Part shown: positions 3,889 through 61,513 of the stretch, in pieces
How positions within the stretch are numbered: position 1 is the first letter of the stretch
Layout: the number at the start of each line of letters is the position of its first letter
From: Chthoniobacterales bacterium
GTDB lineage: Bacteria; Verrucomicrobiota; Verrucomicrobiia; Chthoniobacterales; UBA10450
Reading direction: 5' to 3'
Assembly: GCA_013821455.1 (NCBI GenBank)
Contig: JACDGS010000006.1
Span: 62,001 to 126,000 of the forward strand
Length of the DNA stretch: 64,000 nucleotides
The notes under the pieces: generated by a model
The model's input: only the letters and a program-made list of their open reading frames with translations
Databases searched by the model: none
What the model was told of the DNA's origin: nothing
Program-made: the position numbers and the translations under genes

Positions 3889-3890
3889 TC

Positions 3891-4481: not shown

Positions 4482-4518
4482 GCGCTGGACAGGAAGCTAT
4501 CCTGTCCGCTCTCATTTT
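4482..4518 (+). terminator. Hairpin terminator after the exbBD-tonB-porin operon
   Basis: GGACAGGA (4487-4494) pairs with TCCTGTCC (4500-4507) across a 5-base loop, with flanking GAGCG/CGCTC pairing and ATTTTC downstream. It overlaps the stop of the coiled-coil gene and separates the operon from the haemagglutinin gene. Confidence 0.6.
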
Positions 4519-4532
4519 CACACAAACGTAAC
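4515..4532 (+). promoter_or_regulatory. Weak Pho-box-like site upstream of the haemagglutinin gene
   Basis: TTTTCAC-ACAA-ACGTAAC has the 7+4+7 spacing of the better sites in this window, but only the second half carries a full GTNAC core. It lies 113 bp before the gene start. Treat as a candidate only. Confidence 0.2.
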
Positions 4533-4645
4533 AAAAAGCTCGTTGCGGGTGGGAAAGCGAATAGCGAGGCTTTCCTAAGTTCGCGCCGCTGGCAACGCAG
4601 GAGTGAGATGCGAGCCTACTCCAGGTTATAACCGACTTACTTTTG

Positions 4646-10600: not shown

Positions 10601-13600
10601 ATCCTCCGCCGAGGTGTCGATGCTTCTTCGGCTCCGGCTTTAAACATAGGCGCGAACGTAACGATAAGTGGGAACAGTGTCATCCTCGATTCGACCTCTG
10701 CGACCTCGCTTGATCCGACCGTTTCCTTACAAGGTAACTCGATTGCATTAGATAGCGGCCAGATAAGTCTGCAACTGGATAACCCGGGAACGCTTCAACC
10801 AACCACAGGCCTTATCCTCTCCGGGTTAGCCTTACGCACCTTGCAACAAAGTGCTACTTCAGTCTCACTCTTAAGTTACTCATCTCTGGATGTGTATGGA
10901 ACCGGCGAGGTAGGCTCGTCGGAGATAGCAAACCTCTCCCTGCACGCGGGTGAAATTCGCGGCTTCAATCACAATGACGGCACGGTTACCTTTGCCGCGC
11001 AAAACATTTTCCTGGATAACACTGCCAACGGCCGCTCGCTAGGAGGTCTCGACGCAACTCGCGGGTCGCTCGTCTTCGCGGCGGACACTCTTCAACTTGG
11101 TGGCGGTACGATTGCCTTGGACCAGTTCGCGGGCACCACTTTCATCGCGAATAAAGGGATCATCTTCCAAGGCGCCGGAGGTATTGATGCTCAGGGTAGT
11201 GTTAACGTAGTCACTCCTTTGCTCACAGGAGAAACTGCTGCCACTTATAACCTGTCGGCGGCCGGTATTCTAACGGTGGATCGACCTGCCAACGCCTTAC
11301 CGCCAACTGTGCAAGGCGGCCTCGGCGCGAGTTTAACTCTAACTGGTGAGAGCGTGACCGAGAATAGCAACATCGTTCTGCCTAGTGGCACTCTCACCAT
11401 CCAAGCCAGCGGCGCTTTGCCGGGAAGCGATCTCACGGTCGGAGGTCTTCTCGACGTTTCAGGAACCGCGCAGCACTTTTACGACCTCACTAAGTTTACC
11501 GATGGCGGCGCGATCAAGCTCACTGCGACGAACGGCGACATTCTACTCAATGCCGCCAGCCTGATAACAGTCGCAGCGCAGTCGGATGGTGGAAATGCCG
11601 GAAGTCTCACAATCTCTTCCCCTAACGGTTCCATAGTTACCAAGGGTTCTCTTCATGGTGCCGGCGGGGCTGGCGGTATCTTCAATCTCGACATAGGAAG
11701 CCTGCCCCGGACAGCGGCGCTCGATACCTTGCTTAATAGCGGCGGGTTTACCCAAGCGCGTAATATCCGCGTCCGCACCGGCGACATCCTGGTCGATGGC
11801 GACTCATCAGCCCGAGCCATTTATCTCTCGGCCGACCAGGGTTCCATCACAGTTACGGGAACAATCGACGCCTATTCTAACAACGGTGGAACCATAGGAC
11901 TCTTCGCGAACGCTAATGTAACTCTCGCGAGTGGCGCGGAGCTCAACGCGGCCGGCCTTACGCCCGACGCCGGTGGTAAGTCAGGCCTGGTCGATCTCGA
12001 AACCCGCGGCGCGAACGGTGGTCAGATTAATATTCAGGCGGGGTCGGTGATCAACTTGTCGTTAGGTACAGGACCCGGTGGGACACTGCACTTACGCGCG
12101 CCGCAGAATGCAGGCTCGACTGACCTCGCGGTCGCGCCGATTGCAGGTCAAATCCTTAACCCGCAAAGTATCGTGCTGGAAGCTTATCGTATCTTCGATG
12201 CCAGTGCCGATGGCTCCATTGATAACCAGGAGCCGGCAGTCCTGGGCAATGAGATTGCGATCAGTAACAGTGCCGCGGCTATCGCTACCCGGGTCCTCGG
12301 CACGAATGGTTTTCTGGCGCCGGTGTTGCACGTCCGGCCGGGGGCGGAGATTGTCAACGCAAACGGCGACCTAACGTTGAATAGTGACTGGGACTTATCG
12401 ACCTATCGCGGGGGCGAACGCAAGGCGGTGGTGGATCAACTGGGTCAGCCCCTTTTCGACCAATCCGGTAACCCGATTATGATCGGAGTAGAGCCTGGTA
12501 TTCTAACTCTGCGCGCGAAAGGCTCGATCACTTTCAACGGCGCTCTGACTGATGGCTTTGGCGATAGCCTTGGCACGGTGCCTTTCGATGTTCTCGGAAA
12601 TGTCGCTCGCTGGACTTCTCCTTTACTCCCTGTGTTTGCCGATGGCACTCCGCAACAATCCTGGAGTTATCGAATCACCGCTGGCGCGGATTTCCAGGCT
12701 GCTAACTACCGAGCTACAGCTGCACCGGCTTTCAATAGTCCCGCCGGCTCTCTCGACCTCGGAGTCTTCGGCGGTGAGATTGCCTTTAATCCCTCGGGCT
12801 CGCAATTCGATGCGGTCACTAGCGAAGCACTCGTGGGTCACTACCAGGTCATTCGCACTGGAACTGGAGATATCGTTATTTCGGTTAGTGGTGATGTGAG
12901 ATTGCAAAACCAGTTTGCTACGATCTATACGGCCGGGGCTCAGGTGAGTGACGCCACGCTGGGAGGGCGTTTCGACTTGCCGCGACTCGATGCTACCGGC
13001 GGCGAGACGATTTTGGGAGCGATCCAGGAGAGTCCTCCTTATCCGGCCCAATACAGTTCGGGCGGCGGTAACGTAGTGATCGATGCCGGCGTTGACATTC
13101 TTCACCTCGGCCAGGATAGCAACGGTAACATCATTCCTGACTCGGAGCGTCAACTTCCAAATAACTGGCTTTATCGTCGCGGTTATATCGATCCGGCGAC
13201 GGGAGGATTTGGCGTAGCTCACTTAGGCGACATAGCATCGACTACCTGGTGGGTGGATTTCAGCAACTTCTTTGAAGGAGTCGGCGCCCTCGGAGGTGGA
13301 AATGTAGCTCTAAGTGCCGGACACGATGTGCAAAACGTGGACGCCGTTGTTCCAACTAACTCGCGTCAACCGAAAGACACCCCGGATTCTGGTCAACTCA
13401 TAGAGTTAGGCGGCGGTAACCTGACGGTGCACGCGGGTCATGATATAGACGGAGGCGTCTATTACGTGGAGCGCGGCCAGGGCGAGCTAAGTGCCGGGAA
13501 TAGCATTCATACCAACAGCACCCGCTCACCTTCTCTCATCACACTTACCGGCGAAGCTCCGCTCCCCGAGCAGACATGGCTGCCGACAACCCTCTTCCTG

Positions 13601-15856
13601 GGCAAAGGCAGCTTTTCTGTGCAAGCGAAGGCCGACCTGACTCTGGGGCCGGTGGCTAATACGTTTCTCCTGCCAGGTGGTTATAGTAACACTTATTGGT
13701 ATAAGACTTACTTCTCTACTTATGCTGAGACCGATGCGGTAGATGTTTCTTCGCTGACGGGCACTGTAACTCTGCGCGAAAGCGCTACCTTGCCGGGTAA
13801 GATTTCGCCCGATCCATTGCTTCTCTCCTGGGAGCGCGATGTCCTGCTCCTTTCGCAGACGACGCCGACCGCGGCTTTTTATCAGCCATGGCTCCGGTTG
13901 GATGAAACGGATGTTACAGCCTTTGCCACAGTCACAGCTCTCCAACCTGGAACGTTGCGCGCTACCTCGTTCTCGGGTGACCTGAACTTTGTTGGTCAGT
14001 TACTCTTATCGCCTTCCGCGAGCGGCACGATTGATTTGGCCGCCGCCGGGTCCATTAATGGTTTGCAACAAAGCGGTGTCTTAAATGCAGGCGACGCGGC
14101 CACGCAGGTAAGTGCCTTTAACTCCGGCTTGATCAACCTGTCGGATGCTGACCCATCTTCCATCCCGGGAGCAGAGTCGCCCTTTGCTTTACAAACCATC
14201 GGTGGCCTCAATCCCGCCGCCTTGCTGACCAGCCCTGCGCACGTTCTGGACTTTGTCGATAAGTTATTTCTGGAGTCTGGTTCAATCGCAGGGGCGCAGG
14301 CTGTCCTGCAAACGAAACAGGCTTTGCACGCGCCGGGAGTGCTACACGCTTCCGACCCTAATCCTATCCATCTCTATTCTAACACTGGAGATATCTCTGG
14401 CTTCACTCTTTTCTCCGGAAAGGCAGCCAGGATCGCGGCGGGTCAGGATCTGACTGATGTGTCCCTGTATGTGCAGAACGCTAACTCCTCGGCTATCACG
14501 GTGATCGCGGCGGGCCGCGATATTATCGCGTACGATCCTAACTCACCTCTCCGCAGCGCGGCGCTGGCGTTGGGGAGTTTTCTCGATGTTCCGGGTGCTC
14601 CGCAGGCGGGAGATATTCAGATCAGCGGGCCAGGTGCGCTGGAAATTCTAGCCGGGCGAAATCTCGATCTAGGCATAGGTGCGCCCAACGTGGATGGGAC
14701 CGGAGTAGGAGTTACTTCAATCGGAAATGCGCGCAATCCCTACCTGCCATTTGCGGGCGCGCAAATCGTAGCGGGTGCAGGGCTCGGCGCGGCGAGCAGC
14801 CTGGCGCAAAGTCAGTTGGACTTTAGCAGTTTCAATAATCTCTTCCTTAATCCCGCAACCGCGGCTGACTCAGGAGCGCGATATTTGCCACAAATCGCCA
14901 GTTTCCTCGGGACGCCGAGTAGTAGCGATGCGGAGACCTGGAGTTACTTTACTCAACTTCCGGTAGAAGAGCAGGATTTACTTGCGTTGAAAGTCTTCTA
15001 TCTCGTCCTGCGTGACGCGGCGCGCGATCGCACGGTTCCGACTAGCGCGGGCTTTGGCACTTATGATGCCGGCTTTGCGGCGATTGCTGCGCTCTTTCCG
15101 GATTCGGCAGCTACGGGCAACATCCTTCTGCCTTCAAAGGAGATTAAGACTGCCAGCGGCGGTGATATAAATCTCTTCTCGCCGAGTGGCGGGCTAACTG
15201 TAGGATTGGCTAGTGGAACTCCGGCCGCCGACCAGGGTCTCCTGACGGAAGATGGCGGTAACATAAATATCTTCACCAACAATAGTGTCGCGGTAGGAAC
15301 TTCGCGTATCTTTACCCTGCGTGGTGGGAATGAGATCATCTTTTCCAGTGTCGGTGACATAGCCGCCGGCGCCTCCTCTAAGACAGTGCAATCGGCGCCT
15401 CCTACTCGAGTCCTGATCGATCCGCAGAGCGGTGATGTGAAGACCGACCTGGCGGGACTGGCGACCGGGGGTGGCATAGGGGTTCTTGATACTGTCGCAG
15501 GCGTGCCGCCGGGAGATGTCGATCTTATCGCGCCCGCGGGAACGGTGGACGCGGGCGACGCGGGTATTCGTGTCACTGGCAACCTGAGTATCTCAGCGGT
15601 GCAGGTTTTGAATGCTGGAAATATTTCTGTAGGTGGGACGAGTGCGGGAGTTCCTACGATAGCTACTCCTAACCTGGCTGGTCTAAGTGCTGCGTCTAAT
15701 GCCAGCGCGGCTACGACAAATGCGGCTGAGACGACGGCGAGACAGGCAGTAGCTCAACCAGCGCAGGACGTGCTTCCTTCCATCGTTACCGTCGAAGTGC
15801 TGGGTTATGGCGACGGTAGCGATGACGAAGATCTTAGGCGCCGGAAGAGGGGTTAG
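4646..15856 (+). CDS. Giant filamentous haemagglutinin-type exoprotein (TpsA), TPS domain and DUF3739-like C terminus
   Basis: About 3736 residues; ATG at 4646, with an adjacent in-frame TTG at 4643. After a signal-like segment (LGLTLISTLDGGDIL) and a Gln/Thr-rich linker, residues about 135-255 form a two-partner secretion domain: QQALLNWETFNIGK, VYVLNQNGIIFGGSSQ, VNLHTLVASSLPI. Then come about 3000 residues of beta-helix-like repeats rich in G, S, T, V, N and D. The C-terminal part (from about residue 3440: LALKVFYLVLRDAARD, SRIFTLRGGNEIIFSS, RVLIDPQSGDVKTDLAGLA, GDVDLIAPAGTVDAGDAG) matches the DUF3739 module of filamentous haemagglutinins; the end is Arg/Lys-rich. No TpsB/FhaC transporter is visible in the window. 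It would be a surface or released fibre. Its codon use (many TTA, CTA, AGT) differs from the housekeeping half of the window. Confidence 0.9.
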   Translation: MLPTSTKSKWSMMVMLLGLTLISTLDGGDILRGGATMGAAPSANQTGGTAATLTPHTTTSGTDALARTAQALQAVQAMQTAAQQTAIRGANNLGIDPNHPGLQLPNVPNGLALGGLQVAPGVPANLAAPKANEDPTLWVGAKLPTQSTHTGTTNVSIKQTSQQALLNWETFNIGKNTKLTFDQSAGGANKSEWIAFNTITDPTGRPSQILGSIDAAGQVYVLNQNGIIFGGSSQVNLHTLVASSLPINTNLLVRGLLNNPDEQFLFSALPIPVLPNGGSLPAFTPPAPPNTPSGLVGDVTVQAGALLSSPTTPDHVGGRIALVGLNTTNNGIISTPDGQTILAAGQQVAMSAHSSTDPSLRGLDTFVGAIGPYGSVATNNGLIDAPRADVTLTGGEVDQNGFINSSTSVALNGRVDLLANYNSVPSIPPGVNPVVVLTPSASGLVSLGAGSVTAILPELSSTDRVVGTALALPSQLNLQGKAIHLGEDASILAPNANVSVSAGSWLPVNPSYAFFATDGQIYLDSGASIDVSGSVGVDASVSENFITADLRGAELANFPTQRNGPLRGQTVTIDIRKTGTYNGQPFVGTPLADLSGFVALVQRTVGELTVAGGHVSLTAGGSVILQPGATVNVSGGSINYSGADVQTTKVISDGRIFDISQATPDRIYQGIYTGSTEAHPKWGIFQTTTNQLVNGSQFEPGYTQGGNGGTLSISAASMALDGTLLGATIVGPRQRDMPPVLGSVSLAFQANLPSLSYPLISPNPPDIVIRNGGQLAAADAFALDENGLPLPLRDDRKAKAFLSPDLFTTGGFGSLSVTNSDGNITLPANVTIVAPTGGAIMLSAANLDLEGHITAPGGNLAFNVFEFSPYQFNIAVNISPGLLTAVPPPDRTRGNFTLGAHASLNVDGLIADDRSGIFSPVTFPLITNGGSVTIKSYSVDLQPGSVIDASGGVEVNAANSPTYGHGGAISIQAGQDLDIAALLGGTLDLGATLSAYGGGNLGGSLSILAPAVQIGGKTSDKNTLSLTPSFFNHGGFGSFTFTGLGSPTDTPDTYLPAVTIAPGTRIQPVALSQFVDPTLTLASDLVLTQNLLPQALRTPVSLAFKAPGVTDIFTSGTLVVRGDFVMGAGASIVTDPGATVSISANTADVLGTITVPAGAISVTGGANSSALFLTDTGEALPTLALGSRSILSVAGTTLLTPDPFGFRTGSVLPGGSISLSGNIVAEAGSVLDVSGTSDSLDVAPGFVGVPLAIDPTAAPVVRTTIESDGGSITLNGQQELFSDATLLGAAGGPSAMGGSLTVSSGRFVAPLAEQPLTPLDVTLQVTQKGPTIPAASYSSGDPVIGHPVVDTTGASLPGLGYFAVADFNSSGLASLTLAGTVSFVGPVTVTGHGRVTVGTSGVIYADAPVHLDAPSVALGQAFLPPVPPELQTSPFLVNQQPFFFSPSYGTGRLNVSASMIDVGNLSLQDIGTANLVATNGDIRGDGTLDVAGHISLTAGQIYPPTEVTFNIAAFDYADDTGALQSGSVTILPSGNRQLPLSAGGILNIFATNITQGGVLRAPIGTINVGSSGFSNAMVDPLSNLPFASTDRLTVTPTSVISVSAVDPLTGTSLIIPYGTNQNGTSWIDPAGIDITAGGVPGKTVTLTATTVIDETAATVDIRGGGDLFAYQFITGLGGTVDILGSPASFAIVPNYGQSYAPFDPGYSNSALAVGDSVYLSASNVLPAGTYTLLPARYALLPGAVLVTPEATLPNGTTPQLDGSTLVSGYRFNAFTGQPVSQPLLSTFELASQAVINSRAQYQIYSANSFLKDGALANNAAVPRLPIDAGQLVLAATGAISVRGNVMAMAPPGGLGGLVDIATPDDILIAGGGAVAPIGTLLLDPAELSSFAAESLLIGGLRSNTIDGTLVTVSTDNIVINNAGDPLSGSGITLVANDSITLTKGSVVEQSPGTSATADTLLFGNDATPGSGNGVLLRISSDPSAAILRRGVDASSAPALNIGANVTISGNSVILDSTSATSLDPTVSLQGNSIALDSGQISLQLDNPGTLQPTTGLILSGLALRTLQQSATSVSLLSYSSLDVYGTGEVGSSEIANLSLHAGEIRGFNHNDGTVTFAAQNIFLDNTANGRSLGGLDATRGSLVFAADTLQLGGGTIALDQFAGTTFIANKGIIFQGAGGIDAQGSVNVVTPLLTGETAATYNLSAAGILTVDRPANALPPTVQGGLGASLTLTGESVTENSNIVLPSGTLTIQASGALPGSDLTVGGLLDVSGTAQHFYDLTKFTDGGAIKLTATNGDILLNAASLITVAAQSDGGNAGSLTISSPNGSIVTKGSLHGAGGAGGIFNLDIGSLPRTAALDTLLNSGGFTQARNIRVRTGDILVDGDSSARAIYLSADQGSITVTGTIDAYSNNGGTIGLFANANVTLASGAELNAAGLTPDAGGKSGLVDLETRGANGGQINIQAGSVINLSLGTGPGGTLHLRAPQNAGSTDLAVAPIAGQILNPQSIVLEAYRIFDASADGSIDNQEPAVLGNEIAISNSAAAIATRVLGTNGFLAPVLHVRPGAEIVNANGDLTLNSDWDLSTYRGGERKAVVDQLGQPLFDQSGNPIMIGVEPGILTLRAKGSITFNGALTDGFGDSLGTVPFDVLGNVARWTSPLLPVFADGTPQQSWSYRITAGADFQAANYRATAAPAFNSPAGSLDLGVFGGEIAFNPSGSQFDAVTSEALVGHYQVIRTGTGDIVISVSGDVRLQNQFATIYTAGAQVSDATLGGRFDLPRLDATGGETILGAIQESPPYPAQYSSGGGNVVIDAGVDILHLGQDSNGNIIPDSERQLPNNWLYRRGYIDPATGGFGVAHLGDIASTTWWVDFSNFFEGVGALGGGNVALSAGHDVQNVDAVVPTNSRQPKDTPDSGQLIELGGGNLTVHAGHDIDGGVYYVERGQGELSAGNSIHTNSTRSPSLITLTGEAPLPEQTWLPTTLFLGKGSFSVQAKADLTLGPVANTFLLPGGYSNTYWYKTYFSTYAETDAVDVSSLTGTVTLRESATLPGKISPDPLLLSWERDVLLLSQTTPTAAFYQPWLRLDETDVTAFATVTALQPGTLRATSFSGDLNFVGQLLLSPSASGTIDLAAAGSINGLQQSGVLNAGDAATQVSAFNSGLINLSDADPSSIPGAESPFALQTIGGLNPAALLTSPAHVLDFVDKLFLESGSIAGAQAVLQTKQALHAPGVLHASDPNPIHLYSNTGDISGFTLFSGKAARIAAGQDLTDVSLYVQNANSSAITVIAAGRDIIAYDPNSPLRSAALALGSFLDVPGAPQAGDIQISGPGALEILAGRNLDLGIGAPNVDGTGVGVTSIGNARNPYLPFAGAQIVAGAGLGAASSLAQSQLDFSSFNNLFLNPATAADSGARYLPQIASFLGTPSSSDAETWSYFTQLPVEEQDLLALKVFYLVLRDAARDRTVPTSAGFGTYDAGFAAIAALFPDSAATGNILLPSKEIKTASGGDINLFSPSGGLTVGLASGTPAADQGLLTEDGGNINIFTNNSVAVGTSRIFTLRGGNEIIFSSVGDIAAGASSKTVQSAPPTRVLIDPQSGDVKTDLAGLATGGGIGVLDTVAGVPPGDVDLIAPAGTVDAGDAGIRVTGNLSISAVQVLNAGNISVGGTSAGVPTIATPNLAGLSAASNASAATTNAAETTARQAVAQPAQDVLPSIVTVEVLGYGDGSDDEDLRRRKRG

Positions 15857-16057: not shown

Positions 16058-16106
16058 CTGTCACCGCCCTGTAACGAGACCCCCGTTTGTGTCACGCAAA
16101 CGTGAC
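16058..16106 (+). promoter_or_regulatory. Two candidate Pho boxes before the PEP-CTERM and PstS-like genes
   Basis: Site 1, 16058-16075: CTGTCAC-CGCC-CTGTAAC, two 7-bp repeats 4 bp apart, the geometry of the enterobacterial Pho box and close to its CTGTCAT half-site. Site 2, 16089-16106: GTGTCAC-GCAA-ACGTGAC, same spacing, weaker second half. TATAAA follows at 16107-16112. The sites lie 138-186 bp before the next start codon. The downstream PstS-like gene makes PhoB control plausible. Confidence 0.55.
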
Positions 16107-16243: not shown

Positions 16244-17080
16244 ATGAAACTAACTAAGTTCGCACTCACCGCTGCCCTGGTTCTTGCCGGGTCAGTCTTA
16301 CAGTCCGCGCATGCGCAGACGCCAGTCGTTTATACCGATGGTGACTTGTTCATGGGCTTTCGCTCAACGACCTCGACCAATGACTACCTTTGGGACATTG
16401 GTCAGTTCTCGCTCTTTAATAACGACCCCGTCGGCTTTCACCTTGCCCTCGGCAACATCAACCTCGACTTGACCACGGTCTTCGGCTCCGGCTGGCAGAC
16501 GAACAACAATGTCCAATGGGGTGCCGCCGGAACGCATGACTTCGATGCCAGTGGCAACCTCATCGCTAACCTCTACGCGACCAAGGTTGAGCCTACCATA
16601 GGGACTCGCGCACTCGCCTGGACCCGGCAATCTACCTCAGCGCAGATCGGCTCATCGAGTCAGATTGAGACGCTCGCTTTCGGCGGCTTCTTTGGCAACC
16701 TGTCCACGGCCAACAACCCGACGGCTATCATCCAGTCCACCACTGGTGTGAGTTGGGCTTCGTTTCAGCCCGGCGGCACGAATACGACCGGCGGTAGTTT
16801 CTCGACCTGGGTTCCGACCATCGAGGGACCGACCACCCCTGGAGTGGGTACAGGAATTCCTGGGACCCGCTTGGATCTCTTCGAAATCCTGCCGGACAAC
16901 AGCGGGACCAACCCTGCCTCCAAGTATATCGGCACCTTCAGCATCGATGCCGCCGGGAATGTCAGCTACGACGTCTTTGCCGCTGTGCCTGAGCCTTCCA
17001 CCTACGCTTCCCTCATCGCGGGCGCAGGTCTTCTCCTGGTCATGCTGCGTTTCCGCAGCCGCGGTTCTCTTAATGCCTAA
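16244..17080 (+). CDS. PEP-CTERM secreted protein, DGDLFMGF family
   Basis: 278 residues with a signal peptide (about 1-24, ending SAHAQ), a globular region starting [15 protein letters not shown], and a C-terminal PEP-CTERM sorting signal: VPEPSTYASLIAGAGLLL, a hydrophobic helix, then FRSRGS. The tail implies exosortase-dependent processing, but no exosortase gene is in the window. Residues about 25-240 are paralogous to the N-terminal half of the protein at 20195-21904 (shared [33 protein letters not shown]). It is preceded by Pho-box-like repeats and followed after 62 bp by the PstS-like gene, suggesting co-regulation under phosphate limitation. The biochemical role of the domain is unknown to me. 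Confidence 0.8.
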   Translation: MKLTKFALTAALVLAGSVLQSAHAQTPVVYTDGDLFMGFRSTTSTNDYLWDIGQFSLFNNDPVGFHLALGNINLDLTTVFGSGWQTNNNVQWGAAGTHDFDASGNLIANLYATKVEPTIGTRALAWTRQSTSAQIGSSSQIETLAFGGFFGNLSTANNPTAIIQSTTGVSWASFQPGGTNTTGGSFSTWVPTIEGPTTPGVGTGIPGTRLDLFEILPDNSGTNPASKYIGTFSIDAAGNVSYDVFAAVPEPSTYASLIAGAGLLLVMLRFRSRGSLNA

Positions 17081-17142
17081 CCAACAACCTAACTCAACTC
17101 ATTCCTAACTCTTAACTCATCCTAAGAAACTCAAACTCAGAA

Positions 17143-18402
17143 ATGAAAAAAATAACGACACTTCTGTTGGGCGTCCTCGCCTTCGGATTCATCAGCGCGG
17201 CCCAGGCTCAGACGCCGATCCGCATTACCGGATCGACTGCCTTTCGTTCCAATTCCTTAACCGCGATCCTGAACATCATGGATCCAGGGTTCACCTATGG
17301 ATACACGGGCACGACTTACACGTCATCGAAGGCCGCTATCATCAAGGGATCGGTCGGTGGCAGCGCCGTCACGATCAAGACTTCCTGGTCTGGTTCTGAA
17401 GCCGGCAACCAGACGGTCTCTTATGGCGACAACGCTACTCCGATTAACGTGCTCTTCCTGCCCGATAGTTCCACCACGAGCACAGGCGGCACGCCTGGCC
17501 TGCTCGACCCAACCGTGGCCGGCAATCCCAACAGCCCGGAAGTTCCGGATGTTGCCCTGTCGGATACCTTCCAAAGCACCTCCTTCTTCTTTGGCACTTA
17601 CTTTGGCAAGTTCTATCCGACCTTGAACTCGAGTAATACCACGCCGGGACTGCCCGTCGGTCAGATCGTCGGGGTGGTGCAGTTCAAGTGGATCGCTGGC
17701 CGCAGTATCCCCGCAGGGTTGAGTAATATGACCAGCCAGTTAGCCCGTGACCTTTACGCCTCGGGCACAGCGGCCCTCGCGCTCTGGACTGGTTCGCCGG
17801 CCGATCATGGCACGAAAGTCTTTGCCATCGGGCGCGACTTTGACTCTGGGACTCGGCTCACTGCTTTTGCCGAAACCGGCGTCGGCGCCAAGGCTGTCGT
17901 GAAACAGTATCAGCCGCAAAACGCGGCGAATGCAGTCATCACGACGGCAGGGGGAACGATCGATCACCTGACTCTGTGGCCAGCCGGCAGTGTGAACGGC
18001 ATTCCTTACGGTCCGGGCAACGGCGGATATTCCAGCGGTGGCCAGCTCGCCGCGGCGATCAACAACTTCCCGCCTGCGAACTCCTTGCTCGTAGGTTATG
18101 CGGGCATTAGCGATGCGGACGCCAATATCACCAACATTGCTACGACTGGTGCGACAGAGCTCTCCTACAACGGGGTGACTCTGGGTAAACCCGAGAACCC
18201 CCTTCTCATTCAGGAAGGTGCCTACACTTTCTGGGGTTACGAGCATCTCTACTATCGGGATTCCACCGCGGGCGTCGTGAAGACGGTCGCCGATACCCTT
18301 GCGCTCGACATCTTCAACACCGACGCGCCTTTGCCTCATTACTCCGATATGCAAGTCACCCGCTCCACGGACGGAGCGACGGTCGTGCAGAAGTACCTTT
18401 GA
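17143..18402 (+). CDS. PstS-like phosphate-binding secreted protein
   Basis: 419 residues with a signal peptide (about 1-22, ending AAQAQ). The mature chain begins TPIRITGSTAFRSN, the GSTA/F motif of PstS-type substrate-binding proteins, and later has FAIGRDFDSGTRLTAF, equivalent to the phosphate-contacting RxxSGT loop. It is longer than canonical PstS and contains verrucomicrobial insertions, so affinity and partner are unsure; the classical pstS of this genome is at 35495-36514. It follows the PEP-CTERM gene by 62 bp, shares its upstream Pho-like sites and ends before a strong terminator. It probably binds phosphate or a phosphate-containing compound in the periplasm or at the surface. Confidence 0.75.
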   Translation: MKKITTLLLGVLAFGFISAAQAQTPIRITGSTAFRSNSLTAILNIMDPGFTYGYTGTTYTSSKAAIIKGSVGGSAVTIKTSWSGSEAGNQTVSYGDNATPINVLFLPDSSTTSTGGTPGLLDPTVAGNPNSPEVPDVALSDTFQSTSFFFGTYFGKFYPTLNSSNTTPGLPVGQIVGVVQFKWIAGRSIPAGLSNMTSQLARDLYASGTAALALWTGSPADHGTKVFAIGRDFDSGTRLTAFAETGVGAKAVVKQYQPQNAANAVITTAGGTIDHLTLWPAGSVNGIPYGPGNGGYSSGGQLAAAINNFPPANSLLVGYAGISDADANITNIATTGATELSYNGVTLGKPENPLLIQEGAYTFWGYEHLYYRDSTAGVVKTVADTLALDIFNTDAPLPHYSDMQVTRSTDGATVVQKYL

Positions 18403-18433
18403 TCGTTTGAACATCGCATAGGTCTAGAAATCA

Positions 18434-18470
18434 GCCGGCGCGGGTTCGATCCCCGCGCCGGTTTTCGTTT
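18434..18470 (+). terminator. Rho-independent terminator after the PstS-like gene
   Basis: A perfect 10-bp stem CCGGCGCGGG / CCCGCGCCGG with a 7-base TTCGATC loop is followed by TTTTCGTTTT. The lower part resembles a tRNA T-arm, but the longer stem and the T tract fit a terminator. Confidence 0.85.
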
Positions 18471-18490
18471 TGTCGCTGGCAGCGCTCCAA

Positions 18491-19165
18491 ATGACTAAAA
18501 AAAACATCGCGCAGGGACTGCTCGGCTTCACTTTTTTGCAGTGTGCGATTATCCTTGTTCTCTCCCTATCTTCTCACTTCTTTGGCGAGCCTGGCCCTAC
18601 ACCCCCAGCGAAAATTGAGCAGAAGATCGTTGCTCTCCCGCGGTCTCAATTTGCGTTTACCCCGGAGCAGGCGCCGCGCCCAGTACTTCCGCAGCCCGCT
18701 CAGCCTATCGATCACACCGCCTTGAACTCCGCGACGAGAGCGGGAGAAGCCGCCGTGGCTCCCCTCCTCCTCGACCCACAAGTCGGAGTGCGCGGTTCGC
18801 GCGCGCTGAAGAAAAAACTGGCGGCGAACGTTCCCCAACCTGGTGACGTTTCCCCGGCGAATCTTTTCCCGCCCACTTTCGAACAGGCCCAGCAAACCCT
18901 TGATATACCTCTCGCCTTTTTCGGTTCTTCGGCCGCGTCTGGATTAACCCCGGCCCAAACGGCCGATGTGGCCAAAGTGGCTGATCAGTTCGTGAGCGCC
19001 GTCGGTGTCAACCAGGATCCCGCGGACCCTGTTTACGCCGGAAGGTATTACACCGCGCAAGAGTTAGCCGACGCGCAGGTCTTTGCCGTCTCCGGGCAAA
19101 CTGCCTACATGGCCTTAATCGATGCGCGCGCGCAGGCGGCGGGCAATGCGCCTTCCACTCACTGA
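18491..19165 (+). CDS. Membrane-anchored Pro/Ala-rich protein, unknown
   Basis: 224 residues from ATG 18491 (an upstream in-frame TTG at 18470 lies in the terminator and is unlikely). One N-terminal membrane helix (about 7-28, LLGFTFLQCAIILVLSL) is followed by a Pro/Gln-rich segment and a mostly helical soluble region of about 150 residues containing GLTPAQTADVAKVADQF. No family recognised. It starts right after the terminator of the PstS-like gene and converges with the Sel1-repeat gene. The single-pass, Pro-rich layout suggests an envelope protein. Confidence 0.6.
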   Translation: MTKKNIAQGLLGFTFLQCAIILVLSLSSHFFGEPGPTPPAKIEQKIVALPRSQFAFTPEQAPRPVLPQPAQPIDHTALNSATRAGEAAVAPLLLDPQVGVRGSRALKKKLAANVPQPGDVSPANLFPPTFEQAQQTLDIPLAFFGSSAASGLTPAQTADVAKVADQFVSAVGVNQDPADPVYAGRYYTAQELADAQVFAVSGQTAYMALIDARAQAAGNAPSTH

Positions 19166-19182
19166 GGACCGGTCTAACTCAT

Positions 19183-19211
19183 GTTAGGAATAGATCTGCA
19201 TATCTCCTAAC
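19183..19211. terminator. Hairpin between convergent genes
   Basis: GTTAGGA (19183-19189) pairs with TCCTAAC (19205-19211), with an inner AGAT/ATCT pairing. It lies in the 52-bp gap between two converging genes, so a bidirectional stop is plausible; no strong T tract. Confidence 0.35.
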
Positions 19212-19217
19212 AATCGT

Positions 19218-20153
19218 TCATGACTTACTCGGCTTCGGCGCGTCAGAGTGTTGGTGTTCCTTATACTCTTCGACCAGTTTCTGGCCGGCTGCGATTTGGT
19301 CGAGAGTCATGCCACTCTTAAAGTCTACCAGGAACTTGATCGCGGTAACTTCGTTTTGCTCGGCACTTAAGGTAAGCCACTTGTAGCCCTCCGCGGCATC
19401 TGCTTTCACTCCACTACCGACACAATACATTTGGCCGAGATTGCTCTCCGCTTTGGCATTCTGTTGCTCCGCGCCACGCTGAAACCACTTCACCGCTTCA
19501 GCCAGATCACGCTTCACGCCGCGGCCGTTCTGATACATTACGCCGAGGACGTTTTGCGCCCGGGCGTTTCCCTGATCGGCCGCTTTCTGTAGCCACTTCG
19601 CGGCTTGGGAGTAGTCTTGCGTCACGGCTGGGCCGCCGTTGTAATAGAGATCGCCCAGGTGAAGCTGCGCGGAAAGTAAGCCTTGCTCCGCCGCCTTCGC
19701 TAACCATTCCACCGCTTCCTTGTCACCTTCCTGGGCGAGCATGATTCCGAGGTTATCTTCGGGCAAAGCGGCGCCCTGGCTGGCAGCCTTTCGTAACCAC
19801 TTTTTCGCTTCGACCTTATCCTGCGCAACGCCGCCGGCGCCCAAGGCGTAGAGAGAAGCGAGATTGTTTTGTGCCTTGGCGTTGCCTTGCTCGGCCGCAC
19901 GCCGATAGTATTCCAGCGCCTTCTTCGCGTCGGCAGCTACACCCTTTCCTGAGTCATAAGCTCGCCCCAGCATAAACTCGGCTTCGGCGTCTCCTTTCTC
20001 TGCCGCAGCCAGGGTCTTATTCAGGTCAAACTCTTCGCCATGACCTAGGGCTACCCAGAGCGCGGCGGCCGCGGCGAAAGGAAGCCAGAAACTAACGAAC
20101 ACCTTTAAGATCTTATTATTCCGCAAGGCTCGCACCATCGATGGCAAAGACAT
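19218..20153 (-). CDS. Sel1-repeat (TPR-like) protein
   Basis: 311 residues. An N-terminal hydrophobic segment (about 17-38, VFVSFWLPFAAAAALWVAL) acts as signal or anchor. About six to seven Sel1 repeats of roughly 36 residues follow, recognised by A.(F/Y)MLGRAYDSGKGV, AQNNLASLYALGAGG, AQNVLGVMYQNGRGV and SNLGQMYCVGSGV. Such repeats form superhelical protein-binding scaffolds, often in the periplasm. The C terminus is charged and low in complexity (EYKEHQHSDAPKPSKS). It stands alone on the minus strand, convergent with the unknown membrane protein gene. A specific partner cannot be inferred. Confidence 0.8.
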   Translation of the reverse strand: MSLPSMVRALRNNKILKVFVSFWLPFAAAAALWVALGHGEEFDLNKTLAAAEKGDAEAEFMLGRAYDSGKGVAADAKKALEYYRRAAEQGNAKAQNNLASLYALGAGGVAQDKVEAKKWLRKAASQGAALPEDNLGIMLAQEGDKEAVEWLAKAAEQGLLSAQLHLGDLYYNGGPAVTQDYSQAAKWLQKAADQGNARAQNVLGVMYQNGRGVKRDLAEAVKWFQRGAEQQNAKAESNLGQMYCVGSGVKADAAEGYKWLTLSAEQNEVTAIKFLVDFKSGMTLDQIAAGQKLVEEYKEHQHSDAPKPSKS

Positions 20154-20194
20154 TTTTCAGCGGGAAGGTTATCTAACTCCCAGTTAACGTGGAC

Positions 20195-21904
20195 TCACTC
20201 CGCCAGGCGATATACTTCCACCAAAGCATTGCCTGTGGCGCCATTCGCTCCGCGCAGAATAGCGGTATAGACACCGGGCGCCAACGCCGTCACGATGGCA
20301 GATTCCTTGTCGTTCGTCGGAGGCAGTTTCGTCGCCGCGATTTCAGCCTCCTGGGAGTCCTTCCAGTTATCGTTAGTAAACATGAGGACGCCCGAGCTGT
20401 TATAAATCTCGAGGGTGGGATCGAGCAGAGCGTTACCCAGGGGCAGACTTGGGCCGAGCCCGCGCACCAGAACGTTTGCGCCCGCTTCTCCGTTAATGAT
20501 AACCCCTGCGATCATGACACCATCGTTGGTCTTCACAAAGCCGCGGGTGGAGATATTCGCTATTTTGGAAGTCCCATCCGTTTCGAGATCGTAAATCTCG
20601 AGTAAGCCCACTCCAGTAGAATCATCCTTTCCCTGCACCACTGCCGTATAGGTGCTCGGTTGCAAAGGCAGGAGCAAGGCGGGCTCGCTCGGACTGGGCG
20701 GCGCAACAGTGCTGGCAATGATTTCCTGGTTATTGGTATTGGTCATCCAGTCGTCATTCGCAGCGATCAGCGTTCCGCTTTTATCGTAAAGAGACAGCGT
20801 CGGATCGGCCAGCGCACCCGCGACAGGAAGAGATGCGCCCAAGGCTCTGATGATAACTTTCTTGGGGCCGGTGCCAGTAATGATGAAACCGCCGATGAGA
20901 ACATTGTCACCCGCGCCGACGCTGAGGCGAGTGGAGATGTTAGCCAAGTTACCGTTCAGAGGGGGAGTAGCGCTCGGAGTAGGAGTAGGACTGCCGCTAG
21001 GTGTCGGAGTGACTGTTGGGGTAACTGTGGCGCTAGGCGTCGGGGTTGGAGTCGGTGTCGGGGTCGGTGTCGGTGTCGGTGTCGGTGTCTGGTGTGGGGT
21101 GCCGGAAGGAGTGGGAGTCGGCGTGGGAGTCGGCGTCGGCGTGCCAGCCACCATCACGTCGAAATTCACATTGCCCGAGGAATCGATGCTAAAGGTGCCG
21201 ATATAAACAGCATTGGGATTAGTGCCAGAGTTATCCGGGACGATCTTAAAAAAATCCAACCGGGTATTAACAATCCCTGTGCTGGGGGAACCGGGTGTAA
21301 CGGGAGCTTCAACGGTCGGATTCCAAGTCGAGAAACTGGTGAAGCCCAGCGTGTTTGCGCCGCCCGGTTGAAACGAAGTCCAACTTACTCCCGTGGTGGA
21401 ATGAATGACAGCGGTAGGATTACCGGCAGTTGAAGTCTGGCCATAGAAGCCACCAAAGGCCAGAGTCTCGATTTGACTCGAAGAACCAGTTTGCGCCGAA
21501 AGGGACTGTCTTTGCCAGGGGAGGGCGAAGACACCTACACTAGGCTCAGCTTTGCTGGCGTAGAGGTTGGAGATAAGATTGCCACTGCCATCGAGATCGT
21601 TTGTCCCCGCGACTCCCCATTGGATATTAGAATCTGTCGGCCAGCCCGAACCGAAGAGCGATCCCGAGCTCAAATCTACCCCGATATTCCTCACTGTGAG
21701 ATGAGTGCCCGGAGGATTGCTGTCGAATTGGGTATAGGGACCGAGATCCCAGAGATACTCATTCGTCGCCATGGAAGAGTGAAAGCCCATGAAGAGATCA
21801 CCGTCCGTGTAAACGAGAGAAGTCTGGGCACTGGCGCGCTGCTGGAAAAGGGCGGTCCCTGCTAAAGATAGCGCGAAAGTAAAAGATAGGATTCTATGTT
21901 TCAT
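20195..21904 (-). CDS. Large secreted protein: DGDLFMGF domain, TP-repeat linker, two NISTR-type C-terminal domains
   Basis: 569 residues from ATG 21904, chosen because [16 protein letters not shown] begins a signal peptide; the frame extends 16 codons upstream without a plausible start. Residues about 28-245 parallel the PEP-CTERM protein at 16244-17080. A linker of TP repeats (about 60 residues) follows, then two related domains of about 120 residues, each starting NISTR and containing [10 protein letters not shown] or [21 protein letters not shown], and ending with YTAVVQG/YTAILRG. The same pair closes the Calx-beta protein at 56488. The protein thus swaps a PEP-CTERM tail for a different C-terminal module, presumably for secretion or surface attachment. 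A good Pho-box-like site lies 119 bp upstream. Confidence 0.75.
20960..21150. repeat. Low-complexity TP-codon repeat inside a gene
   Basis: GGTGTC/GGAGTC hexamer-like runs (read from the minus strand as Thr-Pro codons) encode the linker of the secreted protein. Slippage-prone, so copy number may vary between strains. Confidence 0.8.
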
Positions 21905-22022
21905 GAACGCAGATTGGGGAAAGACCGGTACCACAAATAGCGTGGTGCGCACTCAGAAAAGACCGATCGAAATGCTACTTTGTCAGGATAAGTATGCGGT
22001 CCTGGAAGTCGAAGAGTTTAAG

Positions 22023-22040
22023 GTTACATTAGCGTGACAA
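22023..22040 (-). promoter_or_regulatory. Candidate Pho box
   Basis: On the minus strand TTGTCAC-GCTA-ATGTAAC: 7+4+7 geometry and two GTNAC cores, nearly the same as the site at 16058. It lies 119 bp upstream of the secreted-protein gene ending at 21904. Confidence 0.55.
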
Positions 22041-22061: not shown

Positions 22062-22751
22062 CTAATCTGAGTCAGTGAGCCGATAACCGAATCCTCGAAT
22101 CGTCTCGATAAGATCACCGAGGTGTCCCATTTTCTCCCGCAACCGGCGCACATGAGTGTCCACCGTGCGCGTATTAAAGGAAGTGGTATAGCCCCACACC
22201 TCGTGCAAGAGCCTTTCCCGACCTAGCACACGACCGCGATTCTCGATGAAGGCAGCAATCAATTTGAACTCCGTCGAGGTCAGGGTCATAGGCTGTCCTT
22301 CCATCGTCACCACATGGCGTGGCCAATCGAGAACGAATGGACCTTCGAGGATTTCTTGCTTCGTGGCCGCTCCCGGCTCACGACGTCCAGTCACCACCTT
22401 GACGCGTAAAAGAATTTCGCGCGGACTAAAGGGTTTCGTCACGTAGTCGTCGGCGCCTAACTCAAGGCCAGTGATGCGATCCACTTCGTCTCCTTTCGCG
22501 GTGAGCATTACGATCGGTATCTCACGGGTTCTCGCGTCCCCTTTCAGGCTGCGACACACTTCGAAGCCGCTCATCTTGGGCAGCATCACGTCGAGAATGA
22601 TGGCCGCGGGTAACTCTGCGCGCGCAACGGCTATCGCCGTCGCGCCATCCGAAGCAATAACCACACTATACCCGCCGGCTTTGCGCAGCGTGCCTCTTAG
22701 TAACTCGGCTACATCGTTATCGTCTTCGACGACCAGGATACTTTTTTTCAT
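22062..22751 (-). CDS. Orphan OmpR/PhoB-family response regulator
   Basis: 229 residues: receiver domain (1-120) with the acidic pair ED at 9-10, phospho-acceptor Asp54 (IILDVMLPKMSG), the Thr/Lys pair (VMLTAKGD, YVTKPFSPRE), and a winged-helix DNA-binding domain (about 135-226) with the recognition-helix region TRTVDTHVRRLREKMG and the end TIRGFGYRL. It is clearly paralogous to the phoB at 26558 (same DDYVTKPFSPREMLLR-type block). No histidine kinase is adjacent; PhoR at 27257 could serve both. It faces the Pho-like site at 22810, compatible with autoregulation, and lies beside genes with Pho-like sites. Confidence 0.9.
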   Translation of the reverse strand: MKKSILVVEDDNDVAELLRGTLRKAGGYSVVIASDGATAIAVARAELPAAIILDVMLPKMSGFEVCRSLKGDARTREIPIVMLTAKGDEVDRITGLELGADDYVTKPFSPREILLRVKVVTGRREPGAATKQEILEGPFVLDWPRHVVTMEGQPMTLTSTEFKLIAAFIENRGRVLGRERLLHEVWGYTTSFNTRTVDTHVRRLREKMGHLGDLIETIRGFGYRLTDSD

Positions 22752-56487: not shown

Positions 56488-59400
56488 TTACGGAACCTCG
56501 TAAACCTCAACCAACGCCACGCCAGTTGTGCCGTTCTTCCCGCGCACGACTGCCGTATAGGTGCCTGGATCGACATTGAGCAGGAGAGCAGACTCCTTGG
56601 CGTCGGTGGGCGGTGCGCCCGTAGCAACGATATCTGCTTCATTGGGTGCGGTCGTCCAATCGTCGTTAGAATAGATTAACTGCGAACCGCGATAGAAATC
56701 GAGGGTCGGGTCGGCCAGAGCGCCGGTCACGCCGTAGGCGGTCAAGCTGGGACCAATCGCGCGGATAAGAATGTTATGGCTGGTTTGCCCGTCGATGATA
56801 AACCCACCAATGAGCGCTGTGTTATCATCGGATCCCACGAAAGCGCGCGTTGAGATATTGATCAGATGGGTCGCGCTAGTTGAATCCAAGTCGTATACTT
56901 CGACCTCGCCGACACCATTAGCCTTACCACGCAGGATCGCGGTGTATGTGCCCGGCGCCAGCGTAATGACAATGGCAGATTCGTTGTCATCGGTCGGCGG
57001 CAACGTGGCTTCAATGGCAGCTTCCTGGCTGTCTTTGTAGTTATCATTAAAGGCGAGCTGCGTGCCGCTTTGGTCGCGCAGATCGAGGGTCGGATCTTGC
57101 AAGGCGTTGATTACGCCGCGCTGAGTAAGGGAAGGACCGAGCCCGCGAATGAGAACCTGCTTAGAGTTACTCCCTTGGATAATGAAGCCAGCGATCATGA
57201 CGTCATCGCCACTCTGCACCAGACCGCGAGTAGAGATGTTGATCGGCTTAGTGGAGAGATCAGGATTAGTGATATCGACAATGGCCGTAGCTGTCGTCCC
57301 GAGGAATGCGCCATTTGTAGGATCAGACAGAGTGATCTCGAACTGACGCGTTGGTTCGCCTACCGGTTCATTAATGAGCGGGACCGTTATATTTTTCGAG
57401 GTCACATTAGGACCAAAGGTGAGCTTTCCGGAAGTAGCGACATAATCGCGACCGGCAACGGCGCTTAGGTTGCTGGTAGTGTAACTGACCGAGTAAGTCG
57501 TGTTCGGATCGCCGATGCGGGAAAGGACGACGGTGGCGGTAGCTACTCCAGCCTGGTCATTGGCAGTAAAGTTCGGCGACGAGAACTCAAGGGTGGTCGC
57601 ATCGTCATCGATAATACTGACCGTAGCGACGCTCGGCGTTCCCAGCTTCGGCGCAGGGTTTTGTACCGGAACCGTCGCCTAACGGATTGGACAAGATAAC
57701 CGTGAAGGTGGTCGTTCCGTCAGTCGAACTGTTTTCGACAATCGGAATGGTGATGGTTTGCGTGGTAACGCCCGCATCAAAGGTCAGACGACCTGTCGTA
57801 CGGGTGTAGTTCGGTCCATCCTTCGCCGTCCCGTCGCTGGTCGCATAGTCCACTGAGATGACCTCAGCCGGGTCACCCACGCGGAGCGCCTGGACGGTAA
57901 GAGTGACCGTCCCCGAGCCTTCGTTCACAGTATAGTCGGAGGGGTTGAAGCGGAAGCTCGTGACATCGTTGTCGATGATGTTCACGGTTGCCTGCCCACG
58001 CCCGCCGACGAAACCGGTACCATCCGCCGAGCTAAGTGTGACGGTGAATGAAAGAGTGGGATCGGCAGTTGGGTCGTCGATGAGGGGAATCTGAATCGTC
58101 TTACTAACTTCACCGACCGCGAAGGTAACACTCCCCGTTGTCGCGACGTAGTTAACGCCCGCAACGGCGGAGCCATCGCTCGTCGCATACGTAACCGTAG
58201 CCTTGACACCAAGGCCGCCGGAACGCGTGATGGTGAGGGTGGCAAAGCCTGCTCCTTCATCGACGTCGTAGGAATCCTGATTGAAGCCAATGGTAGCTGT
58301 AGGTGAATCGTCGTCAGAAATATCGACGGTCGCAGTAGTGCTACCGACAAGCATGGCTCCGGAGCCGGGATTACTAAGCACAACGAGGAAGCTTTCAGTG
58401 CTCTCAATTAGAGAGTCGTTGATAATTGGAACACTAATGGTTTTCTGCGTTTCGCCGGCATTGAAAGTAAGTGTGCCGCTTTTCGTGGTGTAATCCTTAC
58501 CGGCGGTAGCAGTGGCGGGAATAGTCTGGTAACTAACAGTCAGAACTTGATTAGGATCTCCTGCACGACTCGCCACCACAGTAATATCCGCGGTCCCGGC
58601 AGTTTCGGCGACGGTATAGTTAGTGGGACTAAATTGAATCGTGCTAAAGATATCGTTGTCGATAATTGTGACGATCGAACTAGAGACCGCACCAATGATG
58701 GCGCCCGGGCTCGGATTGCTAAGTGTGACTCGAAATGTCTCTGGCGATTCCGCGATGTTGTCATCACTGATAGGAACAAGAATAGTCTTGGTCGTTTCAC
58801 CCGGTGCAAAGGTGAGGGTGCCGCTGACCGGTGAGAAATCGAACCCGGCAAAGGCAGTGATCGGCGACGCGGCATAGTTAACCGATGTTGCCTTTGAAGC
58901 ATCTCCGTTCGGTTGGAGATTTACTGTAAGGATGGCGTTACCGTTCCCTTCGACAACACTATAAGTGGCGCTGCTGAATTGAACGACATTGCCAAGATCG
59001 TCATCGGTGATTGTGATCTGTGTGGTCGAGATACTTCCAAGGCGAGCGACGTCACTTCCTGTGAGAGTCAAGTGGAAGGTCACATCACCCTGGATAAGAG
59101 TGTTATTCGGAATGGGTATCTGAATAGTCCTCTCGGTTTCGTTCCCGATCGTGACTCCCATGAAAACGATAGGAGCAAATTTTATCGAGCCGCTAACTGC
59201 GGTGAAGTTTACGCCTTCCTGCGCGGTATCTCCTGGCCGAATCTCCGTAGTATAGTTAACGGTGGTTCCCGCCACCGCGAAATCACCATAGCGAACTACC
59301 TCAATGGAGATCGATTCCTGTGCGCCTTCCATGAAGGTGTTAGTCGTAGTTAATAGCTGGACGGTATTAGGACCGGAGTCATCAAAGATAGTTACGATGG

Positions 59401-61513
59401 CAGTACTCTGCTGCCCGATCGAAGTGAATGGTCCCGGATTGACCAGAGAGACGGTGAAAACTCTTGTCCCCTGTGGGGCTGGATTATCTGTGACGGGAAT
59501 AGTTATATCCTGAACATTCACCCCCGCTGGAAAGGTGATGAGAGTCGATGAAGGTGTTTGATAGTCCGCCGGGTTAGTGGCCGTATCTCCCGGCGCCCCC
59601 AGGGCCAGGTGAACAGTTAGCACCTGTGTCGGATCAGCCCCGCGGGTGGCTCTCACTCGCACGGAAACGGCGCCGCTGGTTTCGACAACACCATAATTGC
59701 TTGAGTCGAACTCGACTGTATTCAGGCCATCATCATCCTGGATTGAGACCTCGCTGGAAGAAGGCAGACCCAGGGTTGCATTCACCGGGTTAGTAAGAAC
59801 GACGGTAAAGGACTGAGGCGGCTCGACCACTTTGTCGTTCAGGATAGGGACTGTGATGGTAGCGACTGAAACTCCCGGCGCAAAATTGACCGTCCCGCTT
59901 ACGGGTGTAAAGCGCGTGGTGCCAGCCGAACCCGGTATCGCCTGATAGGTGGCAGAAACGGCGGTGTTGGTAGAGCCTGTCCGGTCGAGGAGAACAGTAA
60001 GGGTTATGGCGCCGGCGCTTTCCAAAACGGAGTAGTTAGCCGAGCTGAATTGCAGCGTGCCGGCGGAATCGTCGTCGAGGATAGCAAGAGTGGCCGTTGA
60101 GGTAGTGCCCAGGGTGGCACCGGTAGGATTCGCGAGAACCAATCCTACCGTCTCAGTATTCTCGACCAGCGTGTCGGATAGGATCGTTATAGGAAAAGTC
60201 TTAAGAGTTTCACCCGCGTTGAAAGTAAGACGTTTGTTACTGGCACTAGTGATAGCGACGTAGTCTTGTCCAGGTGTAGCGGATCCTGTTTCGGTGAAGT
60301 ACTGCACGGTGACCACTTGGTTCGGGTCGCCGACGCGATTTACGCGAACGGTTACGTTGGCCGTGCCGGCACTCTCCCCTACAGTGTAGTTCGAGCTGAC
60401 GAACTCGACCGTATTCGCGCTCTCGTTATCTATAATCATGACCTCGGCAGTCTGCGTTCCGCCGGGGATAACAACGCCAGAGTTAGGAGCTGCACTAAGA
60501 ACGATGGAGAAGGACTCCGTTCCTTCGACCTCAGTATCATCAAAGATCGGAACATCGAAAGTGGCCGAAGTCTGGCCTTGCGCGAAGGCGACCGCGCGCG
60601 AGACGGTCGCATAGTCCTTATCAGCCGTTGCCGTCCCGCCGACGGTGGCAACGTTTACCTGCACGGCGGCGTTAATGTTGCCCGTGCGCAATAGAGTAAT
60701 GGTCGCATTGACTCCATCCTCAGAGACTTGATAGCTCGTGTTACTGAAGACGACGGACGAGCCTTCGTTATCGACAATGGTCACTCCAGCCGTTGCACTA
60801 CTGAGCGTGTAAGTCTCGCCCGCAGGTTCGGTTAAATTAACTGTAAAAGTCTCGTCGCCTTCCAAGAGTGAGTCATCAAAGATCGTAACAGTGAAGGTTT
60901 GCGACGTAACTCCTGGAGCGAAGGTAAGTGCGCCTTGGGTTCCGGCGAAGTCAGCGCCGCCTGTCGCGGTGCCGGACGCGGTTGCATAGTCCACTGTGTT
61001 ACTGCCAGAGGTATCGCCGGTGCGAGTAACTGTCACCGTCACAGAGCCGGCGCTTTCATTTACGGAGTAGCTCGCAGGATTAAAACCGATCGTCGTGCCC
61101 GAATCGTTATCGTCGATTGTGATTGTCGCCGTGCTCGTGCTCAGCGTGGCGTTAGTTGGATTGGAAAGCGAAAAAGTGAATTGTTCGGAGCCTTCATGGA
61201 CCAAGTCATCAGTGATTGGCACCTGGACAAGTTTTGCCGTCTCGTTAGGCGCGAAGCTCAGGGTGCCTGTCGTTTGCGTGTAGTCTGATGGGTGGACCGC
61301 CGTGCCGTCAGCCGTCGCATAAGCGACCGTAATAGTCTGCGTGTTTCCGGCTGTCCGCGTGACCTGCACGACGATGTTAGCCGTCCCATCGCTTTCGGAA
61401 ACGGTATAAGTGCTGGATTGAAGAGAGACCGTGTTTGCGGTTGCGTTTCCGGCGCAAAAAAGCGCAATTAGGCAAAAAAAGGCAAAAAGGGTGAGTGTTT
61501 TAAGATTGTTCAT
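56488..61513 (-). CDS. Giant secreted Calx-beta repeat protein with two NISTR-type C-terminal domains; one frameshift
   Basis: Signal peptide (about 1-26, FFCLIALFCAGNATA), then twelve Calx-beta domains of 110-125 residues, each closing with an acidic Ca-binding strand such as TITIDDNDSG, ATLAILDDDSAG, TQITITDDDLGN, ATVDISDDDSP. The first frame stops at 57605; the correct frame continues from about 57657 (KPAPKLGTPSVATVSIIDDD) to the stop at 56488. The span 56488-61513 is a multiple of three plus one, so exactly one extra base sits in an AAAACCC run near 57657-57664. The end holds two NISTR domains as in the gene at 20195. About 1674 residues when corrected. Likely a calcium-binding adhesin. 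Real frameshift or sequencing error is open. Confidence 0.8.

Follow-up and report, generated by a model that had tools for sequence, protein, structure and literature searches.

The window studied here is a stretch of 64,000 nucleotides on contig C65 of a Chthoniobacterales draft genome (4.30 Mb, 117 contigs). Within 6 kb it encodes two secreted proteins that share one domain, here called the DGDLFMGF domain, with 63% identity across 259 amino acids. The first copy ends in a PEP-CTERM tail, the match to which lies above the Pfam cut-off (PF07589, 23.0 versus 20.7 bits); the second continues through a TP-rich linker into two tandem modules of the type that we call NISTR. The open reading frame (ORF) of the second copy opens at a GTG at position 21952, and the signal peptide starts at the ATG at 21904. 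The two genes are three genes apart, and a genome search turned up no further copy. A sequence-only reading of the window had proposed this arrangement, with Pho-like sites at both genes, and all of it was recovered (Table 1). The same reading held that a NISTR pair also ends a giant Calx-beta protein. The pair is indeed there, at 56491-57243, but the gene is split by a frame break between about 57605 and 57690: the Calx-beta ORF (57605-61513) ends prematurely and the NISTR part lies in a different frame (56491-57678). The giant is therefore read as a pair of ORFs, owing to either a sequencing error or a real mutation.

Table 1. Features of the window discussed in the text; coordinates count from the first nucleotide of the window.
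Feature	Coordinates	Strand	Basis
Pho-like box CTGTCACCGCCCTGTAAC, upstream of 16244	16058..16075	+	14/14 positions
Secreted DGDLFMGF protein, 278 aa, PEP-CTERM tail	16244..17080	+	signal peptide by reading; PF07589 match
PEP-CTERM motif of the first DGDLFMGF copy	16985..17056	+	TIGR02595 at C65:78985-79056, 23.5 bits
Second secreted DGDLFMGF protein, continuing into TP linker and NISTR pair	20195..21904	-	ORF reading
NISTR module, second (C) copy of the 20195 protein, one residue short of the stop	20201..20563	-	profile match
NISTR module, first (N) copy of the 20195 protein	20564..20947	-	profile match
TP-rich linker of the second copy, residues 271-331	20960..21142	-	sequence reading
DGDLFMGF domain of the second copy	21155..21811	-	genome search
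Pho-like box TTGTCACGCTAATGTAAC, upstream of 21904	22023..22040	-	13/14 positions
NISTR module, second copy at the Calx-beta gene end, flush with the stop	56491..56865	-	profile match
NISTR module, first copy at the Calx-beta gene end	56866..57243	-	profile match
Calx-beta giant with 11 Calx-beta stretches, its NISTR end lying in another frame	57605..61513	-	ORF and profile matches

A profile search of the source genome gave 57 NISTR matches, mostly tandem pairs, in about 28 genes. Twenty-four ORFs carry an intact pair and two have one full module, the remainder being broken frames or fragments. Position was tabulated for all ORFs that have both a full module and a visible stop; the others were dropped. 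In all 26 such ORFs of the source genome the last module ends at most five residues from the stop. When three sampled sets were pooled, the last module lay within 16 residues of the stop in 173 of 180 ORFs, namely 26 of 26 in the source genome, 107 of 112 in 77 related loci and 40 of 42 in the f7 genomes (G018, G091 and G099). The 77 best related loci come from metagenome-assembled genomes of Chthoniobacterales, Spartobacteria or Verrucomicrobia. Among their 108 multi-module ORFs all but one, which has four modules, contain exactly two, and the gap between modules is seven residues in 79. When 50 source-genome copies were placed on a tree, on which three N copies (L041, L045_3402 and L050) are mislabelled C, first and second copies grouped by position, with 7 label changes compared to 15.8 after shuffling and none of 500 shuffles as low. 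The consensus of a 74-row alignment of pairs likewise differs between the two positions. Position-wise clustering and position-specific consensus together indicate that the pair behaves as one element. Across a sample of the phylum, NISTR was detected at an E value of 1e-6 in 10 of 194 genomes, belonging to two families (f1 and f7), and seven of the ten positive genomes hold at least 22 copies.

The proteins that end in this pair appear to be exported. By a crude rule, 122 of 136 complete NISTR ORFs begin with a signal-peptide-like start, against 216 of 387 other long ORFs from the same loci. The same rule found a signal peptide in 23 of the 24 NISTR ORFs of the source genome with an upstream stop, missing it only in the NISTR part split off from the Calx-beta gene. 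A scan of 20 proteins from the source genome identified as cargoes glucose/sorbosone dehydrogenase (GSDH), M23, fn3, DUF7453, DUF5122, GDSL lipase, alpha/beta hydrolase, matrixin (M10), cyclophilin, NHL, FG-GAP/UnbV, arylsulfotransferase, HbpS-like and DUF4394 domains, to which Calx-beta and the DGDLFMGF domain are to be added; these families are unrelated to each other. No published description of the NISTR module was found in the open-access literature that was searched.

Three cargo families, DGDLFMGF, the C109 family and DUF3494, exist in both PEP-CTERM and NISTR versions, and each includes a case in which both versions lie at one locus. In the C109 family this case is in the source genome, where one of two adjacent genes at C109 (40% identity) ends in PEP-CTERM and the other in a TP linker and NISTR pair. 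The same two endings are found on divergent, adjacent DUF3494 ice-binding-like genes of a relative, at L112 (judged by length and genes the same contig as L330), and genome G160 has DUF3494 proteins with both tails on separate contigs. Comparison of the 12 source-genome genes with a TIGR02595 match above the cut-off, plus one neighbour, against 25 NISTR cargoes gave a NISTR paralogue at an E value of 1e-3 for two PEP-CTERM genes only, those of the window and C109 couples, each at the same locus as its partner. No PEP-CTERM tail was seen behind the NISTR module in the set examined, 185 NISTR ORFs with a stop. In other genomes, 7 of 11 C109 members end in PEP-CTERM (one reads PETS), the 11 being those of 14 non-own loci whose ORF was relocated; hence PEP-CTERM looks ancestral in this family. 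Among 50 DUF3494 rows, which cover some of the 53 genomes that gave a match, we counted 17 PEP-CTERM tails, 5 NISTR, 17 other, 5 without a tail and 6 whose end was not seen. By reading, some of the other tails resemble PEP-CTERM variants and several resemble autotransporter barrels; the source genome's own DUF3494 protein (L333, 4642-7101) ends in an autotransporter beta-barrel, the sole barrel confirmed by profile. PEP-CTERM tails on DUF3494-type ice-binding proteins have been reported in a sea-ice survey (PMC9957290), the consulted portions of which contain no mention of NISTR.

Within the class, 37 of the 384 genomes searched contain the DGDLFMGF family itself. A tree of 53 domains comprised 28 with PEP-CTERM, 23 with another tail and 2 with an unknown one, and required at least 10 changes between PEP-CTERM and non-PEP tails. 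Of 14 two-copy loci, 11 combine one PEP-CTERM with one non-PEP copy, two have PEP-CTERM twice and one has neither; a tail reading PEPQ in G263 was counted as PEP-CTERM, G415 was left out as its second copy is a fragment, and some of the loci share genera (G241/G263/G334, G425/G406 and G430/G284). In G000, G425, G406 and G317 the two members of a couple group most closely with one another, and strong support backs this grouping. The tail changes and the nearest-kin couples point either to repeated tail exchange after local duplication or, equally well, to gene conversion of the domain with tails kept. Where the end of the protein was visible, a NISTR tail was found on the window copy alone. A frequent non-PEP tail is instead a short end closing in FYRV-like letters, preceded by a TSP3 repeat in two of five proteins scanned, for which no family name was seen in two profile libraries; examples are L195, L196, L215, L223 and L228, and by reading it also occurs on some DUF3494 proteins. 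The proposal that one domain carries alternative C-terminal modules thus extends to three cargo families, with the qualification that DGDLFMGF bears several non-PEP tails, of which NISTR is one.

To the NISTR pair a fold can be assigned with some caution. The AlphaFold2 model of the window pair (74 rows) has a mean predicted local distance difference test score (pLDDT) of 91.5 and a predicted TM-score of 0.82 and consists of two beta-sandwiches. A two-row model of the DGDLFMGF domain reached a pLDDT of 31 and was not used. The top Foldseek match of the pair was the tandem collagen-binding domain s3a-s3b of ColG, with low TM-scores over the pair (0.31 and 0.32). VIA-align Z values were 8.1 for residues 421-522 of Tk-SP, 6.8 for the ColG domain and 6.5 for the PPC domain of B. 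anthracis collagenase (5sv5), middling scores that may reflect a common arrangement; these matches stand among unrelated rows at Z 5 to 7. With the PPC profile (PF04151) the window pair scored 21.9 bits, below the gathering cut-off of 25.9, and 6 of 74 pairs matched at an E value of 0.01. NF038127 (FDP_fam, the DVUA0089 family) matched 54 of the 74 pairs at 0.01 or better; the window pair reached 37.8 bits, above the NCBI cut-off of 29, the ORF at 56488 gave 26.9 bits, below it, and the whole 585-residue protein at 20195 was not listed. Sequence matches in the PDB to designed and kelch propellers, a WD-repeat protein and a viral NS-S were read as chance. On model and profiles, the NISTR pair looks like a PPC-like module in the form of an unusual, nearly obligate C-terminal pair.

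We also searched for co-occurring secretion systems. The source genome has four matches to the exosortase PF09721 (best E value 2.2e-45), and the enzyme is present in 144 of the 194 phylum-sample genomes, among them all ten that bear NISTR. This co-occurrence says little about a link between the two, because 134 of the 184 NISTR-free genomes also have exosortase. Secretins number four in the source genome and were present in all 12 genomes tested, type II and pilus secretins not being resolved. For type IX secretion, SprA was found in none of 18 genomes, in a search whose control was silent as well, and PorV in none of 12 above the cut-off, with weak matches in four and none in the source genome. 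The type IX sorting domain TIGR04183 scored 16.3 bits on the window pair, against a cut-off of 23, and matched 2 of 74 pairs at an E value of 0.01. No type IX system was thus detected, in a test with a weak control, and no dedicated secretion partner was found.

Pho-like boxes were searched as 11-bp direct repeats with 14 scored positions and a hand-written consensus. The 64 kb contain four, compared to a mean of 0.6 (maximum 2) in 20 Markov sequences, and two of the four precede the DGDLFMGF copies. They suggest that phosphate limitation may switch on both versions. As a trait of the family Pho regulation was rejected, with boxes at 12 or 13 of 14 positions before only 8 of 52 other ORFs. A response regulator of OmpR/PhoB type by reading (22062-22751) adjoins the box of the second copy. 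Between the two copies lies an exported protein (17143-18402) with PstS-like stretches by reading, for which no Pfam family at an E value of 1 and no convincing NCBIfam match were obtained. Elsewhere, 24996-25580 encodes a further PEP-CTERM protein, so that the window holds 2 of the 12 genomic TIGR02595 matches above the cut-off, and 1987-15856 comprises a Porin_5 protein followed by an ORF of 3737 amino acids that reads like a two-partner-secretion adhesin.

Our preferred reading, to which we give somewhat less than an even chance, is that the NISTR pair is an extracellular C-terminal docking or localisation module in the slot otherwise taken by PEP-CTERM. Cargoes would be exported by Sec via their N-terminal signal peptides and would then pass the outer membrane, perhaps through a type II system in view of the secretins. 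The folded pair, two PPC-like beta-sandwiches, may then hold its cargo non-covalently at the cell surface, the matrix or a substrate. A single exported domain would thereby be made in two forms bound for different places, the PEP-CTERM form being processed by exosortase and the other docked through NISTR; this we infer from the architecture and the repeated exchange of tails. The use of two tails on the same domain suggests that the tail sets the destination of the protein. The proposal of an unrecognised surface-anchoring or secretion module is partly supported, by the place at the C-terminus in the samples taken, the unrelated exported cargoes and the alternation with PEP-CTERM; the fold, however, looks PPC-like rather than unknown.

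Several observations weigh against a docking module. The samples behind the position count are biased, since the related loci were drawn from the 80 top-scoring matches to NISTR-type motifs (NISTRGFV-type) and the f7 loci are high-scoring copies. An N-terminal pair precedes CHRD (once below the cut-off) and DUF1800 in three proteins (L099, L127 and L143); in L142 the pair precedes other domains, L153 has 117 residues after it, L264 has a single N-terminal module followed by 274 residues, and L266, the same G099 protein as L061, has an N-terminal pair followed by 609. A single N-terminal module stands before a stretch that by reading is fasciclin-like, and a GlyGly-CTERM-like tail follows the pair in G181 (L062, L073) and G169 (L063, L072). 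These GlyGly-like tails are exceptions outside the 180 ORFs counted, as are the single protein seen at L057 and L066, the second ORF of L059, and L235, whose end was not seen. The C-terminal place is accordingly not required, and strict C-terminality was rejected on account of L099, L127, L142, L143, L153, L264 and L266. Thus, where the sequence-only reading had asked whether the module is always C-terminal, the answer in the samples taken is nearly always, and the free internal placement that would speak against it is approached by these cases, few as they are. Moreover, random pairing of tails would give at least 11 mixed DGDLFMGF couples with a probability of 0.066, which is not significant alone. 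Finally, the pair is without a known ligand or anchor, and a neutral structural role would yield much of the same pattern.

The pair could instead be a true sorting signal, comparable to the type IX C-terminal domain and read by a dedicated secretion or anchoring machine. The near-invariable C-terminal place on unrelated cargoes, the large expansion in some genomes with no match in most, the replacement of PEP-CTERM and the weak TIGR04183 matches of two pairs would all fit such a signal. We nevertheless consider it unlikely, as N-terminal and internal placements weaken it, one type of protein has a GlyGly-CTERM-like tail behind the pair, and the SprA search (control silent) and the PorV search, weak matches in four genomes apart, gave nothing; no partner gene was identified, and no genome-wide profile for one was made. 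A bolder version, in which NISTR is the address tag of an undiscovered Verrucomicrobiota secretion or anchoring system beside exosortase and couples of PEP-CTERM and non-PEP paralogues are kept so that one domain can reach two places, is in our view a similarly doubtful proposition.

That the pair is an ordinary shuffled accessory domain which does not affect location and stands at the end only through an accident of C-terminal fusion would agree with the patchy distribution, the N-terminal cases, the pairs on paralogous neighbours (L047 and L035) and the several other tails that occupy the same end position in relatives. Shuffling does not sit well with the two-copy rule, the fixed gap and the position-specific copies, nor with exchange against PEP-CTERM on paralogues of one locus, and we regard it as quite improbable. 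The PPC-like fold and C-terminal place also recall the PPC domains of secreted proteases, and the pair may likewise be a C-terminal propeptide that helps in secretion or folding before being removed. The consulted parts of a study of protease E495 describe forms with two, one and no C-terminal PPC domain, suggest that such domains help secretion or localisation, and report that both PPC domains bind protein (PMC3327674). The series of forms speaks for a propeptide, but protein binding fits docking as well and the NISTR cargoes are mostly not proteases, so that we rate this explanation unlikely.

Some two dozen exported proteins of unrelated kinds within a single genome end in this module, which also replaces PEP-CTERM on the second copy of a domain. 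Such natural matched pairs keep the cargo fixed and differ in the tail alone, so the role of C-terminal tails in Verrucomicrobiota is directly testable. The names DVUA0089 or PPC may hide a distinct architecture that is nearly always paired.

Compared with known systems, the NISTR pair resembles PPC domains, at middling Z values, in its predicted beta-sandwich fold and also in its C-terminal place on secreted proteins, but it differs from them in the N-terminal NISTR signature, the near-obligate pairing and the mostly non-peptidase cargoes. Its best match to NF038127 spans about 63 of the 150 model positions. With the type IX C-terminal domain it shares a beta-rich C-terminal module on unrelated cargoes, whereas the window pair falls below the TIGR04183 cut-off and neither a SprA match nor a PorV match above the cut-off accompanies it. 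Like PEP-CTERM, it is a generic C-terminal module of exported proteins and stands where the sister copy of the same domain carries PEP-CTERM; unlike PEP-CTERM, it is a folded pair of about 250 amino acids without the PEP motif and without the hydrophobic stretch and basic end.

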